Part shown: positions 16,415-22,309 of the stretch, piece after piece
Layout of the letters: the number at the start of each line of letters is the position of its first letter
How positions within the stretch are numbered: the stretch's first letter is position 1
Source of the DNA: Chloropicon primus
Lineage: Eukaryota > Chlorophyta > Chloropicophyceae > Chloropicales > Chloropicaceae
Length of the DNA: 64,000 nt
Reading direction: 5' to 3'
Assembly: GCA_023205875.1 (NCBI GenBank)
Contig: CP060762.1
Coordinates: 620,001 to 684,000 of the forward strand
Program-made: the position numbers and the translations under genes
The notes under the pieces: model-generated
The model's database searches: none
The model's input: the letters and a program-made list of their open reading frames with translations, nothing else
Told to the model about the DNA's origin: nothing

Positions 16415-16457
16415 GGAGAAGGAGAAACCAGAAGAGAAGGAGAGAGCAGAGAGGGTC

Positions 16458-16493
16458 ATCCTAAGGTCGCGGGTTCGATCCCCGCCGAAGGCA
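16458..16493 (+). pseudogene. Isolated 3' half of a tRNA gene
   Basis: A perfect T arm is present (stem GCGGG/CCCGC with loop TTCGATC), preceded by TCCTA-AGGTC, which reads as the 3' strand of an anticodon stem plus a normal variable loop, and followed by CGAAGGC and A as acceptor 3' strand and discriminator. No partner GCCTTCG acceptor strand or D arm exists within about 200 bases on either side, so this is a half, not an intact or permuted gene. It lies between the AP2-like gene and the recombinase-like gene. It could be an integration-site remnant or a tRNA-derived insertion. The amino acid cannot be told because the anticodon is missing. Confidence 0.6.
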
Positions 16494-16673
16494 CATCTCG
16501 GCAGCAACGAACACAAGTTGCTCTCCAACCATGGTTCAAAATGACACGGGAAACTCCGACCCGTGATACACTTCCGACCTCTAGTACGGGGATCACATCC
16601 GGTGTCGAAACAACACCGCGGCGAAACAACAGCCGCCTTACCTCTTGCTCCGTGAGACAAGGGTTCTGTGAGA

Positions 16674-16799
16674 GACGTTAGTTATACAAGGATCACAACG
16701 AGATCGTAACGGCGGAGGACGGCGAGGACGACGACGGCGACTGACGTTAGTTATACAAGGATCACAACGAGATCGTAACGGCGGAGGACGGCGAGGAGG
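16674..16799. repeat. 69-bp-period tandem duplication
   Basis: GACGTTAGTTATACAAGG and the following roughly 40 bases (through CGGAGGACGGCGAGGA) occur at 16674 and again at 16743. The two copies are identical over about 55 bases. It lies just upstream of the recombinase-like gene. Confidence 0.9.
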
Positions 16800-16921
16800 A
16801 CGGCGAGGAGGTGTGTGACCTGGCGGGAGCTGGAGAGAGAAAGAGAGCCGCCGTAACGCCAGAGCCGCGAACGAGGCGGCCGACGAGTGGGGACGAGAAG
16901 ACCACGACCAGAGAGAAAGCG

Positions 16922-19773
16922 ATGAGTTACCTCCTGGAATACTTCGGCCGCTGGTTGCCGACGAAGAAGAGGAGACTGACGAATACTGGGACGTCATGTG
17001 AAGAAGGGGCTGGTGGCGCCACCCCGGCCGCGGTTCTCCAGGTGGGTGGCGCCCAAGGATGGCGGGTGGCGCCCAAGGATTGTGGTGCCAATGTCTCTGT
17101 CTTCACCCACTTGCAGGGCAGCGGGCAGCCGTGCGGCGCGGTGGCACTCGGAACAAGCCTGGACACCAACGCTTGCACAGTGGCCCTGGCGATCTCCGCG
17201 GGACCTCATAGGGAGCGGGAGATGGCCGCCATCGAGGAAAACGTGGATCCGACGACGCTTCTCAATGCGGATGGACTTCTTGCCTCTCTTCGCTTCGCAG
17301 ACGACGAATCAGCTGGCGCGCGGCCCACCCTTGCACGCGAGGGTACACGGGCGGAGCGAACTCGCGAGCCTGAGGAGCTGACCCTGGTCCGCGTGGTCCG
17401 AGGCCGTGGCGGAGTCCACCTGGAGCGCGTTGAGGGCTTGAAAGAACTGACCCACTGCATCGTCTTCCTCCGCGAGTCCCTTGCGCAGGAGGGGCTTGGG
17501 AACAAGCTCGCTGGTCAGGCGGCCACGATCTCAAGCGCGTTGCTCGGCAAAGATCTTCCTAAACAGGTGAAAGCATTTCGTTTCGTGGAGCTTGGGACCG
17601 CCAGCCGCTCGCGATGCCTCAAGGACCGCAAAGTTCTTACGAAAGCTCTTGCCCTTGCGAAGGAGAAGGGCGAGCCTTGCGCGCTTCTTGTAGCTGCCTT
17701 GTCGCGATTGTCGAGACGGTCACAAGCTGACGAGGACCTCGACTACCTTGCTGAGCGCGCAGGGCAGGCCTCTATACTGGCGTGTATCCCGACGTCCCAT
17801 GCAGCAGCTTTGATTGGGGAGGAAAAGAAAGAGGAGCTCAAAAAGTACATGAGCAAGGCTGCAAGCACCTCGGACGGGCAAGCCGTGTACTCGGCGTCGC
17901 ACTGCATGCTCAAGTCCGGCGCCACCCGTTGTTCTGTAGCATCGGGCCAACACACTTCTGAGGAACTTTGTCTCCTCGTCGAACACGTCGAGCACGTCCT
18001 GAGGCACAAGCTGGAGAATCTGGAGAAGCCGGGGGAGCAGAAGCACGGGAAACCCCTTCTCCTCGTAGGTATTGCCCGTACGTCGCCTGGAACTGACGTC
18101 GCCAAGTCTACTTCGATATATGTCCAACGGTGCCTACTCCTCCACGTCCTCTCAAGGTGCGCGACAACCTTCAGAAGGATGTTGCGCTAAGCGGGAAGCT
18201 GCCGGTGATTGAAATCACAATTGGGACCTTTGCAGAGAAGTGTGGAGGCTCGACCTCGGAGGAGGCTGCCGTCCAAGAATGGGTGAAGAAGGTCTGCGAC
18301 GAGGGCAAATACGCAGGGGGCGTTCTACTCTGCACCCGTGCAGATCGGCTTACAAGGGAGCTTGCGACGCTCGGGACGCTCTTGGAAAGGTGCTGTAAGG
18401 CGAACATAGCAACGGTTGCGTGCTTGACAGAAGTGGATGCCGTCGTCACCGAGGAGAGACACGTTCAAGAGGCCGTAGCCCAGGTTCTCGCTGGAGATGA
18501 GGAGTATCTTCTTGGAAAGCGCTTTGTGGAGCAACGGGCGAGTGATCTCGTCCGCGCATGGAAGAACCAACCCACAGTTCGTGTGCTCGTCGCTGCTTGT
18601 TCCATCACGGAAGCGAACTACGACATCATTCTTCGCGAGGAGCACATGGAGTTCCTGGAGACCTACAGGCAATACTGCCACGTTCACTCCGTGAGGGACG
18701 AGTTGTTTGAAAACCGTGATGGACACGGCTTGGATGAAGACGCATTGAGCAGAGTCTTTGAGTACTTTGCGGATGCACTAAAGGGAGAACATGTCGATGT
18801 CGTGTTTGAGAATGAATGTTTCCCAGAAACCGCGATCTCTGTGACTCAAAAAGATTTCTTCGAATGCTCCTGCGCTGATAAATGCTCTCGCAAGTCGTCC
18901 AGGACAACAGGCACCGCGAACACCGCTCCAGCACATACTCGATGCATTTGTGGTTGTGACATGTGCAAGAGGAAGCGTCCTTGCATTCTGGTGGACAGCG
19001 ACGCCGAGGACGGCGGGGAGAGGGAGAGAGAGCTTCGGAAATTTGATGCCGCTGCATGTCCCTGTGAACGTTGCAGCAGCAGCCCCTTGAGCACTGGTAC
19101 GACAAGGAAGACACAGGCCAAGACCAACACGAAAGGGAAGAGGAAGGCCAAAGCAAGGAAGCCGATGAAGGAGTTTCCTCGACTTCCTACTACAGACGGT
19201 ACTCAAACCCTGCGCTGCATCTGCTGTGATGCTTTTCGTCGCCCTGAGTGCCCCTTGGTCAAAACAGGAGCTCTGACCCCGGTTCCTGGGGAGGAACGTG
19301 ATCGAGGTGGGCACAATCCCACTTGCCTCCTCTCGAACTGGTGCTGGTACTGCCACCGCTTCATCTTCAAAAGTGAGTTTAACCACTGGTGCTCGTTCGG
19401 ATGCTTCTTGAAAGCCACGAAGTTCGTGGACAAGAAGGAGCTTTGGGACATGAGCAAGGAAATTGGCATGACACAACTGAAGAACACGATTGGCTTCTGG
19501 TTTTGTGTTCCGTGTACAAAGAAACCTGAGTCCGAGAAAGCCTTGATCGAGAAGATCCCCTCGATCCCCTTGATCCCAACCAACGGTTCAAGGGGCTTGA
19601 GGTGCTTGTCCTGCAGTCATAACGATTGCAAAATCGGCAAGGGGTACAAGGAGAACGCAGAAGGAGGCGGCGTGAACGTTGGCTCCGGCCGGCAGAAGTC
19701 CGAGAACAGAAAGGCCAAAGAGGTAGTGACCCCGCATCCAATGCTCGTCAACATGATGCTACAGGACTCCTAA
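16922..19773 (+). CDS. Protein with two serine-recombinase-like segments and Cys-rich domains
   Basis: First frame 16922-18121, second frame 18157 (or 18175) to 19773. The two join in phase if a very short GT-AG intron (18122-18156, 35 bp, or 18122-18174, 53 bp) is removed; otherwise there is a frameshift. Just before the join is VGIARTSPGTD, matching the catalytic-serine start of the resolvase fold (Y-A-R-x-S). After it come the second conserved block, LLCTRADRLTRELATLGTLLE, and a long helix. An earlier segment (about 17570-17780) repeats this pattern: VELGTASRSRCLKDRK, then LLVAALSRLSRRSQADEDLDYL, but without an obvious catalytic Ser, so it may be an inactive duplicate. Next comes the same Cys-rich module as in the AP2-like gene (about 18853-19083), then a C-terminal region with several CxxC pairs, including WCWYCHRF and FWFCVPC. 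The frame is open upstream but the first ATG is 16922. A mobile-element or domesticated recombinase is inferred, not shown. Confidence 0.6.
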
Positions 19774-20650
19774 GCCGATCCTAAAGACTATCCTAATCCT
19801 AATCCCCAAAAAGCAATCCTAAAGCTGAAATATTCTATCCTCCTCCACCACACTATGTATGTCTCCGTTGACCGCCGGCACATCGTTCGTTCGTTCGTTC
19901 GTTCCATCCTAAAAACGTCGTTCAGGTGACCTTCCTTCCACGATCATGGAACTTCGCATCAACAAACGAAACTCGGGGAGAGACAAGATTCAGTGAGGGA
20001 CTTGCAGAGTGTCTCCGCTGGACGCATCTCGCAATTCCAGCAGCAGCAGCAGCAGCAAGAAGAGGTGGCACCTGGCATCGATCGATCGATCGAGGAGCCC
20101 AGGTGGAGGGAGAACGAAGACCAACAGGAACAGGAACAGGCTTGTGACTTGTGGGGTGGCGTTGCGAACAACGGACGATCGGGCGGGAAGGGCGGGAGGG
20201 GGAGAGGGGGAGAGGGGGAGAGGGAGAGGGGTCACACCTTCACGCCGGTGGAGAGGCAAGGCGCGACCTTGGCACGCAGCATGTGATAAAGTCTTGCTGA
20301 GCTGGGTGTGGCCTCTCTCTCTCTCGATCTGCTGGGACTACGAAAGACGTTTCTTTTCCAGGGAGGGGAATTATGGGTCCTTCGATTGTACGATAGTCTC
20401 GTTTTTCAGATTAGATTAAGCTCTCGTCCGTCGATATTCCGGGCGTGTGAACAAAGATCCGATTCGCGTGAGGCCGTCGCACCCATCCCTGCACTCCTGC
20501 TGCGATACCATGCCACCAGCCTTGCCATACTCGCAGTTCATGTCCGTGACAAACTCATAGGTGCAAGGTGTGCGGCGGATGCACCGTTCCCCAAGCCAAA
20601 GGTGAAGACGGAGGCTCGAGAGCAAGGCATCTCGCTCTGAGGCGTGTTGG
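19774..20650. other. Spacer with simple repeats, no gene recognised
   Basis: It contains several AATCCTAA/ATCCTAAA copies (about 19775-19825), a (TTCG)n run (about 19886-19902), a (CAG)n run (about 20040-20058) and a GAGGGGGA minisatellite (about 20190-20231). A Cys-rich minus-strand frame (20416-20625) is open but I cannot support it as a gene. Confidence 0.45.
20190..20231. repeat. GAGGGGGA minisatellite
   Basis: Short tandem GGGGGAGA units, four to five copies. Confidence 0.7.
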
Positions 20651-21400
20651 ATGGATCCTCACCAACGTCTTCTTCTCGAGGTATCGTATGAAGCTCTGCA
20701 CAGCATGGAATCCGATTCTTCCTCGAGTTGGATGCATCAGAAACAGAGGATGGGTGTGATGGTGGGCATGTACACTCACTCAGCATGTTGAATACAGCAA
20801 TATCTATGCTGGTTATGGCCATAAGTCTGAGGCTCATGCGGTTACGTCAGGTTCTTTGGGTGTTTCTGCAGGGCGACTGTCCTTCACATATGGTTTGCAA
20901 GGAGCTTGTGCAGCTGTTGATACGGCTTGTTCATCCTCTCTTGTCGCAGCACACATGTCCTACATGAGCCTTGTTCTTGGCGACGTCTCGAAGGGACTAT
21001 ATACACAATATGCATCGCTTGCGTTCTCGGTCCTCTTGAAGATGGTTCCAAACAAGATACGGTGATGCTACGTGGCACTGCTGTGAACCAAGATGGGCGA
21101 TCCAGTGCTTTGACCGCACCGCACGGACCCTCTCAACAGCAAGTGATGCGTATGAGCTTGCACTCGGCAGACCTTGATGCCTGGAGTGCACAGGTCTTGC
21201 AGATGCACGGTACAGGTACTCCTCTTGGTGGCCCCATTGAGGTCGGTGCGGCATCTGCTGTGTTACTCTCCGAGGCCACCAAACGGGACTTCCCTGTCCA
21301 CATGTCTGGAGTGGAGAGCAATATGGGGCATAGTGAAGCAGCAGCTGGTATGGCTGGTATGGTTCAGCTCGCAGGCAATTTGCTGCGGTCTATGTCCTCC
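20651..21400 (+). pseudogene. Relic of a modular polyketide synthase ketosynthase domain
   Basis: Ketosynthase motifs appear in the correct order but in more than one frame: MDPHQRLLLEVSYEAL (from 20651), then EYSNIYAGYG, GRLSFTYGLQGACAAVDTACSSSLVAAH with the active-site Cys in DTACSSS, then LRGTAVNQDGRSSALTAPHGPSQQ, MHGTGTPLGGPIEVG with one catalytic His, and SNMGHSEAAAGMAGM with the other. At least two frame changes are seen, and the segment that should lie between the active-site block and the NQDG block is missing. No acyltransferase or carrier domain adjoins it. It is therefore a decayed fragment of a type I polyketide synthase. Its edge reaches the terminator of the permuted tRNA gene. 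Confidence 0.9.
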
Positions 21401-21404
21401 GTAT

Positions 21405-21414
21405 AAAAAAAAAA
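21405..21414 (-). terminator. RNA polymerase III oligo(T) terminator
   Basis: Ten A residues on the + strand give T10 on the minus strand, starting five bases past the 5' half of the permuted tRNA-Ser (its last base is 21420). That is where a pol III transcript of the permuted gene should end. Confidence 0.85.
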
Positions 21415-21419
21415 GGCGA

Positions 21420-21514
21420 ATTCGAGTGTAGCTCCTTAACCACTCGGACAACTCAGCAAGGGTTTTTGCTCGCTGAGTGCAGGATTCGAACCTGCGCGGC
21501 TGAAGCCACTACAT
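21420..21514 (-). tRNA. Circularly permuted tRNA-Ser(CGA)
   Basis: On the minus strand the 3' half comes first (21514-21471) and the 5' half second (21457-21420), separated by 13 bases. Rearranged, the parts form a complete type II tRNA: acceptor GCTGAGT/ACTCAGC (7 of 7 pairs), D arm TCC-GAGTGGTTAA-GGA, anticodon stem CTACA/TGTAG (5 of 5), loop CTCGAAT with anticodon CGA, variable arm GGCT/AGCC, T arm GCAGG-TTCGAAT-CCTGC, and discriminator G as in serine tRNAs. The mature length is about 81 nt plus CCA. The break is in the anticodon loop near position 37/38. Leader CGAA and trailer TTCG can pair to present splice sites. The B-box lies upstream of the A-box. A T10 run follows. Such genes are known from Cyanidioschyzon and prasinophytes; processing goes through a circular precursor. 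Confidence 0.93.
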
Positions 21515-21655
21515 CGTTCTTCGACTTTCTTACGTAAAAATCGTGTTGAGAAAGAGAAGAAATTTGCTTGTACTTATGGTTCTCCTTGCGCCTCCAGAGA
21601 AACGAAACCCAAGAGGAAGGGACGGCGACCCCAGCACACGACGACCCCAGCAACG

Positions 21656-22309
21656 ATGGCTCCTGCTCCTGCTCCTGCTCAGGACCCCCGGCTTTCGGTC
21701 ATCCGCGGGACGATCCGGGAGGTTCCCAACTTTCCGAAGGATGGTATCCTGTTCCAGGACATCACGACGACGTTGCTGGACCCCGTGGCGTTCGGGCACT
21801 GCATCGAGTTGCTGTACGAGAGGTACAGGGACAAGGGCGTGGACGTGGTGGCTGGTTTCGAGGCGAGGGGGTTGATTTTCGGCGCTCCGCTCTCGCTGCG
21901 GCTCAAGTGCGCCTTCGTGCCCCTGCGGAAGCCCAAGAAGCTCCCTGGAGAAACGATTGGGGAGGCGTACGACTTGGAGTACGGCTCGGACAGGATCGAG
22001 ATGCACGTGGGGCACGTCAAGGAGGGCGACAGGGTGAGTGGCGGCGCCTCTCCGCCTCGTGGCGAGCCTCGACGGACTGACTTTCTCTCTCTCTCTCTTT
22101 CTCAAAAACCTAACCTGCAGGTTTTGCTGGTGGACGACCTCATCGCGACGGGGGGAACCATGGTCGCCGGCATCAAGCTGATGAAGAAGGTGAAGGCCGA
22201 GATCGTGGAGGCGGCCTGCATCCTGGAGCTTCCCTTGCTCAAGGGGAAGGACAAGCTGGTGGAGCACGACGTGAGCCTCTACACCATGGTGGAGAAGGAC
22301 GTCTTGTGA
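21656..22309 (+). CDS. APRT: Adenine phosphoribosyltransferase
   Basis: Purine salvage enzyme: adenine plus PRPP gives AMP. It has two exons, 21656..22033 and 22121..22309, joined in phase (donor GTGAGT, acceptor CTGCAG), giving 188 aa, normal for APRT. N-terminal features are RGTIREVPNFPKDGILFQDIT and GFEARGLIFGAPL. The PRPP-binding loop VLLVDDLIATGGT (127-139) begins exactly at exon 2. No transit peptide is evident, so a cytosolic enzyme is likely. Parts of exon 2 recur in the 3' flank (22431-22499). Confidence 0.96.
   Translation: MAPAPAPAQDPRLSVIRGTIREVPNFPKDGILFQDITTTLLDPVAFGHCIELLYERYRDKGVDVVAGFEARGLIFGAPLSLRLKCAFVPLRKPKKLPGETIGEAYDLEYGSDRIEMHVGHVKEGDRVSGGASPPRGEPRRTDFLSLSLSQKPNLQVLLVDDLIATGGTMVAGIKLMKKVKAEIVEAACILELPLLKGKDKLVEHDVSLYTMVEKDVL

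Follow-up and report, generated by a model that had tools for sequence, protein, structure and literature searches.

A predicted circularly permuted nuclear tRNA-Ser(CGA) gene in the green alga Chloropicon primus

Circularly permuted tRNA genes are rare, but algae are already known to carry them. PMC3978253 tabulates 34 permuted genes, with a longest intervening sequence of 74 bp and with Glu and Phe absent from the table. Among them are permuted Ser(CGA) genes broken at 37/38 in O. lucimarinus, O. tauri, M. pusilla, M. sp. RCC299, and the B. natans nucleomorph, and in two Ostreococcus species and M. sp. RCC299 both Ser(CGA) and Ser(TGA) are permuted (PMC3978253). A. amoebiformis also has a permuted Ser(CGA) gene, and permuted Ser genes have been postulated for the green alga that gave rise to chlorarachniophyte plastids (PMC4494063). 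CGA is listed among the missing anticodons of O. tauri, M. commoda, B. prasinos, and some land plants (PMC7678280); in those prasinophytes, this would follow if CGA came from permuted genes alone.

The Ser(CGA) gene of C. primus described here resembles those of Ostreococcus, Micromonas, and the chlorarachniophyte nucleomorph in isoacceptor, break, and intron-free halves, and its intervening sequence of 13 nt compares with 5-28 bp in the known permuted Ser(CGA) genes. Compared by description only, it differs in belonging to another class (Chloropicophyceae) and in having no usual 32:-3 pair. The permuted tRNAs of Cyanidioschyzon merolae have the same general design, with a circular intermediate that would apply to C. 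primus by analogy. However, they are broken at several positions, whereas the six permuted genes of C. primus are broken at 37/38, the only break looked for.

The C. primus genome annotation used tRNAscan-SE and reports 46 tRNA genes (PMC12301720), presumably without the permuted ones. In the green alga Auxenochlorella, for which permuted tRNA genes are reported, the tRNAscan-SE set was likewise incomplete until they were found (PMC12636532). Our literature search found no permuted tRNAs of Chloropicon in print, and the word "permuted" is absent from the main texts of PMC6731263 and PMC12301720.

Layout and cloverleaf of the tRNA-Ser(CGA) gene

The window, the whole 64-kb stretch of DNA that we analysed (C9:620001-684000), belongs to a genome of 17,584,162 bases in 20 contigs, which we also searched. 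As the original prediction held, the 3' half precedes the 5' half on the minus strand, the 5' to 3' order being leader, 3' half, intervening sequence, 5' half, trailer, and a run of ten T (T10) (Table 1). The element that we take to be the B box lies ahead of the presumed A box on this strand, again as predicted. The 60 nt upstream of the gene are 65% AT. The predicted T10 run is present downstream of the 5' half, and its role as a terminator of RNA polymerase III is likely. The length of the intervening sequence falls within the 1-74 bp published for permuted genes (PMC3978253).

Table 1 Coordinates of the tRNA-Ser(CGA) gene, its surroundings, and related loci
Feature	Location	Strand	Remark
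Leader adjoining junction	21515..21539	-	CGAA at 21523-21520
3' half of tRNA-Ser(CGA)	21471..21514	-	positions 38-73 (variable arm, T arm, acceptor 3' strand, G73)
Presumed B box	21482..21492	-	GGTTCGAATCC
Intervening sequence, 13 nt	21458..21470	-	AGCAAAAACCCTT
5' half of tRNA-Ser(CGA)	21421..21457	-	positions 1-37
Presumed A box	21440..21450	-	TGTCCGAGTGG
Anticodon CGA	21424-21422	-	inside 5' half
Trailer	21415..21420	-	TTCGCC; TTCG can pair with leader CGAA
Run of ten T	21405..21414	-	likely RNA polymerase III terminator
Divergent neighbour frame	21656..22309	+	phosphoribosyltransferase domain (PF00156); presumably adenine phosphoribosyltransferase-like (APRT)
Repeat or mobile-element mosaic	16452..21400	+	context outside gene
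tRNA-Met 3'-half fragment	16458-16493		in mosaic
Frame with resolvase N-terminal domain	18097-19773		PF00239, E 8e-06; in mosaic
Presumed ketosynthase-like fragment (translation)	20927-21400		in mosaic
Permuted Ser(TGA)	C3, about 655664-655756	-	T-loop word and model
Permuted Glu(CTC), copy 1	C5, 490605-490724	-	T-loop word and model
Permuted Glu(CTC), copy 2	C5, 493078-493197	+	T-loop word and model
Permuted Glu(TTC)	C14, 98385-98475	+	T-loop word and model
Permuted Phe(GAA)	C5, 63067-63246	+	T-loop word and model
Phage-contig permuted tRNA-like place	L087, 8744-8820
Phage-contig permuted tRNA-like place	L088, 5699-5773
Phage-contig permuted tRNA-like place	L091, 7804-7881

The two halves are joined by Watson-Crick pairs at seven of seven positions in the acceptor stem and five of five in the anticodon stem, in agreement with the full pairing claimed in the prediction. 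The T stem is paired at 5/5 and the D stem at 3/4 positions, and the variable arm has 3 bp (GGC/GCC). When rejoined at 37/38, the halves form a complete class II cloverleaf with a 7-nt anticodon loop carrying T33 and A37, and ARAGORN names the product tRNA-Ser(cga). The unrearranged window yields no tRNA from ARAGORN and no Rfam family above threshold. We reject a collinear intron-containing tRNA gene, because the 3' half comes first and no collinear tRNA is parsed in the window, and split (trans-spliced) tRNA genes, because both halves lie on one strand, 13 nt apart. The combination of an anticodon-loop break with a type II arm had been singled out as notable, but it is a usual case in the green algae covered by PMC3978253 and PMC4494063.

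A repeat or mobile-element mosaic approaches the gene from its downstream side, with its right edge 4 nt past the T10 run. It is related to sequence lying just 3' of many tRNA genes in C. primus, with matches, for example, at loci L002, L005, L010, L016, L018, L019, L022, L030, and L039. Relative to the C16 locus L018, window positions 16583-20926 are an insert. Elsewhere in the genome, four tandem tRNA-Pro(TGG) genes lie at C4:1124897-1127803 with a spacing of about 0.95 kb, and genes 2-4 differ from gene 1 at one acceptor base.

Detection, copy number, and alternative readings

Two tools, both of which detect a break at 37/38 only, recover tRNA-Ser(CGA), a permutation-aware search being the check that accompanied the original prediction. 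One, a scanner, looks for rotated cloverleaves with linkers of at most 110 nt and has a top score of 21; the other is a covariance model, R1, built from 14 rotated C. primus tRNAs that include no Ser, no class II, no Glu, and no Phe. In the window, the scanner returns the tRNA-Ser(CGA) place alone, in two overlapping readings with scores of 19 and 20. It finds matches in one of 40 dinucleotide shuffles of the window (best score 17) and in 28 of 600 further shuffled windows, two of them at 19 and none at 20. With linkers up to 400 nt, 1/200 shuffled windows gets 21, and the control is thus strong for short linkers only.

The covariance model scores the place at 40.2 bits (E 3.6e-11). Under the same model, no unpermuted C. 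primus tRNA locus exceeds 28.5 bits, and two tandem tRNAs of a phage contig reach 33.6 bits. The sole other match in the window (22.9 bits at 16458-16540) is rejected as a permuted gene, being a lone tRNA-Met 3' half without a 5' half. In five viral contigs that resemble the permuted Ser arrangement, the matched place is in every case two ordinary tandem tRNAs. We set aside two scanner matches, one in L058 (score 17) and one at the place in L091 that resembles YrlA (score 19). In L025, linkers of up to 400 nt give spurious scanner readings up to 20, beside a collinear Ser(GCT) gene.

A permuted tRNA-Ser(CGA) with a break at 37/38 is by a wide margin the best reading of the locus. As judged from sequence, we put the probability that this is a working nuclear gene of C. 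primus at roughly 0.93.

The foremost alternative is a dead relic, a rearranged or tandem-duplicated tRNA-Ser that came by its order accidentally and yields no tRNA. The adjoining mosaic with its tRNA-Met fragment and the missing 32:-3 splice pair speak for a relic, but each of the two stems that the halves form with one another is intact. In particular, comparison with the collinear tRNA-Ser(AGA) gives paired changes at acceptor positions 5:68 and 6:67 and at anticodon-stem positions 27:43, 29:41, and 30:40, and all five changed pairs connect the separated halves. Copy number also argues against a relic. A DNA search of the whole genome with the rejoined tRNA-Ser(CGA) returns only its two halves and no second copy; thus the ordinary tRNA-Ser(CGA) gene that the original prediction named as evidence against itself is not found. 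A diverged collinear copy elsewhere in the genome is unlikely, judging from genome searches that score the best candidates only (63 of 285 in the general search, 1 of 1 in the Ser(CGA) search). A looser repeat of the general search adds one place on C4, which at 23.2 bits is below threshold and gives no parsed tRNA. The searches give collinear genes for Ser(GCT) and Ser(AGA), both of which contain an intron, and Ser(TGA), the other tRNA able to read TCG, is also permuted. TCG makes up 176 of the 831 serine codons in ten long frames of the window, which are unverified as genes and one of which lies inside the repeat. Taken together, we consider a relic improbable.

Much less credible is a mimic of the YrlA type of Y RNA, with the module order T arm, acceptor, D arm and with no processing into tRNA. 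YrlA (RF02553) shares this permuted order and, alone among Rfam families, gives a match that covers the gene in the gene's own orientation (E 3.5). In addition, three phage places outscore tRNA-Ser(CGA) under the permuted model (53.7-58.9 bits with R1, in contigs rich in tRNA genes), and the one checked, L091, matches YrlA at 31 bits. However, the tRNA-Ser(CGA) locus scores 14.5 bits where the gathering threshold is 69, no Rfam family is above threshold there (L044), and in the Rfam search none of the three phage contigs comes up to 69. The Ser-type variable arm and the anticodon loop of the rejoined gene also speak against a Y RNA; to our knowledge, YrlA RNA has no anticodon arm. Chance pairing of unrelated sequence is the least plausible of all, since the loose scanner matches in shuffles stop at 19 for linkers up to 110 nt, the single 21 arises with linkers of up to 400 nt, and the covariance E value is far from chance.

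Splice junction and processing

The original prediction proposed that leader CGAA and trailer TTCG form a splice structure. The pairing is possible, and a fold with leader-trailer pairing exists, but the duplex is equalled in 135/500 composition shuffles and is within chance. Of a BHB-like motif at this junction the C32:-3 pair is also missing, since position -3 carries A; C32 may pair with G-5 as a substitute. C32:G-3 is kept in the four other distinct permuted sequences of C. primus. Their leader-trailer duplexes are equalled in 1/500 shuffles for Ser(TGA), 8/500 for Phe, 64/500 for Glu(TTC), and 95/500 for Glu(CTC). From these counts and the 32:-3 pairs, Ser(TGA) and Phe have good support for their splice geometry, and Ser(CGA) has weak support.

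Of the 29 distinct collinear genes that our parser resolves, 18 have an intron at 37/38, and the 32:-3 pair is present in 17 of these, indicating that tRNA splicing is in routine use. ARAGORN in intron mode misnames several collinear tRNAs, and these counts come from our own parser, which allows introns at 37/38 only and misses L014 (Gln per ARAGORN) and L029 (Gly per ARAGORN), so that both are outside the counts. A SEN34-like gene on C3 and a SEN2-like gene on C7 resemble the two catalytic subunits of the splicing endonuclease. A tRNA ligase is presumably present, because tRNA introns are many.

According to PMC3978253, atypical tRNA introns are almost absent from green algae. At L147 (C19:67034-67198), a collinear tRNA-Trp gene has a 37/38 intron and a second inserted stretch of 77 nt in the D loop, which starts with GTAAGT and ends with TTAG, like a spliceosomal intron. 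ARAGORN names the gene Trp once both stretches are omitted.

The circular-RNA pathway has been demonstrated for other algal permuted tRNAs (PMC3978253). In C. primus, RNA polymerase III would transcribe the gene from leader through trailer and end at T10, and the 3' and 5' halves would fold together in the precursor. The tRNA splicing endonuclease would cut either side of 37/38, and tRNA ligase would join the ends into a circle, from which RNase P and tRNase Z, in the role described in PMC3978253, would excise the intervening sequence. CCA addition would then give a tRNA-Ser reading TCG. Transcription, circle formation, charging, and use of this tRNA are thus predicted from the gene.

Further permuted genes and decoding

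Five more genes are permuted, namely Ser(TGA), Glu(CTC) twice, Glu(TTC), and Phe(GAA), each named by ARAGORN once rejoined. They come from a search with seven T-loop words, which occur at 13 (GGTTCGAATCC), 20 (GGTTCGATTCC), 12 (GGATCGAAACC), 28 (GGTTCGAGTCC), 7 (GGTTCAAATCC), 13 (TGTTCGATYCA), and 13 (GGTTCGATCCC) places in the genome. Of these 106 places, 96 were scanned, eight are known collinear genes, and two are in the window. Many of the scanned stretches are just 281 nt long, so a distant partner half could be missed, and further permuted genes may exist because the seven words do not cover all T loops. The Phe and Trp genes were spotted by eye and then rescanned with longer flanks. The 12 places of GGATCGAAACC, a word that we take to be typical of initiator tRNAs, give no tRNA, and no initiator Met gene is recognised.

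The covariance model gives 65.2 bits for Phe, 50.3 for Glu(TTC), 45.9 for each Glu(CTC), and 36.8 for Ser(TGA), the next-best score among 51 sources being 23.5 bits. Permuted Ser(TGA) has a scanner score of 19, which 2/600 shuffled windows reach and which is within genome-wide chance, so its call rests on the covariance model and Ser anatomy. Similarly, as one shuffled window reaches 21 with linkers of up to 400 nt, the Phe gene (scanner score 21) rests on its 65.2 bits and ARAGORN. Its intervening sequence of 107 nt compares with a published maximum of 74 (PMC3978253), and no T run longer than 2 occurs in the following 25 nt. The two Glu(CTC) genes are identical, including the intervening sequence, and lie in opposite orientation ~2.4 kb apart. 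All six permuted genes have the break at 37/38, the only one that the tools look for. Relative to the table of PMC3978253 and to PMC4033280, permuted Glu and Phe genes are new, Auxenochlorella's list lying outside this comparison.

A genome DNA search with the rejoined Glu(TTC) returns a tRNA-Asp place (87% identity) and six half-matches in permuted order at the three permuted Glu loci, and no collinear Glu gene. Because the search reaches a relative as far as Asp and still finds no collinear Glu, the decoding of glutamate codons seems to rely on permuted genes. No collinear Phe copy is found in the general genome search (63 of 285 candidates scored) or with the word TGTTCGATYCA. It is likely, as far as gene content can tell, that the nuclear Glu tRNAs (3/3 found), probably Phe (one gene found), and both TCG readers come from permuted genes only.

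Permuted nuclear tRNA genes now extend to Chloropicophyceae. Since permuted Ser(CGA) is already known in four prasinophytes and a nucleomorph, C. primus adds another class and an unusual genome-wide dependence. That Ser(CGA) and Ser(TGA) are permuted in C. primus, both Ostreococcus species, and M. sp. RCC299 raises the question of one old event versus repeated ones. If Glu, Phe, and the TCG readers are indeed permuted only, cytosolic protein synthesis would rely on processing through circular RNA, and none of the permuted genes of C. primus would be a dispensable oddity. If all Glu genes are permuted, C. primus would provide a natural experiment on whether the circular route is essential.
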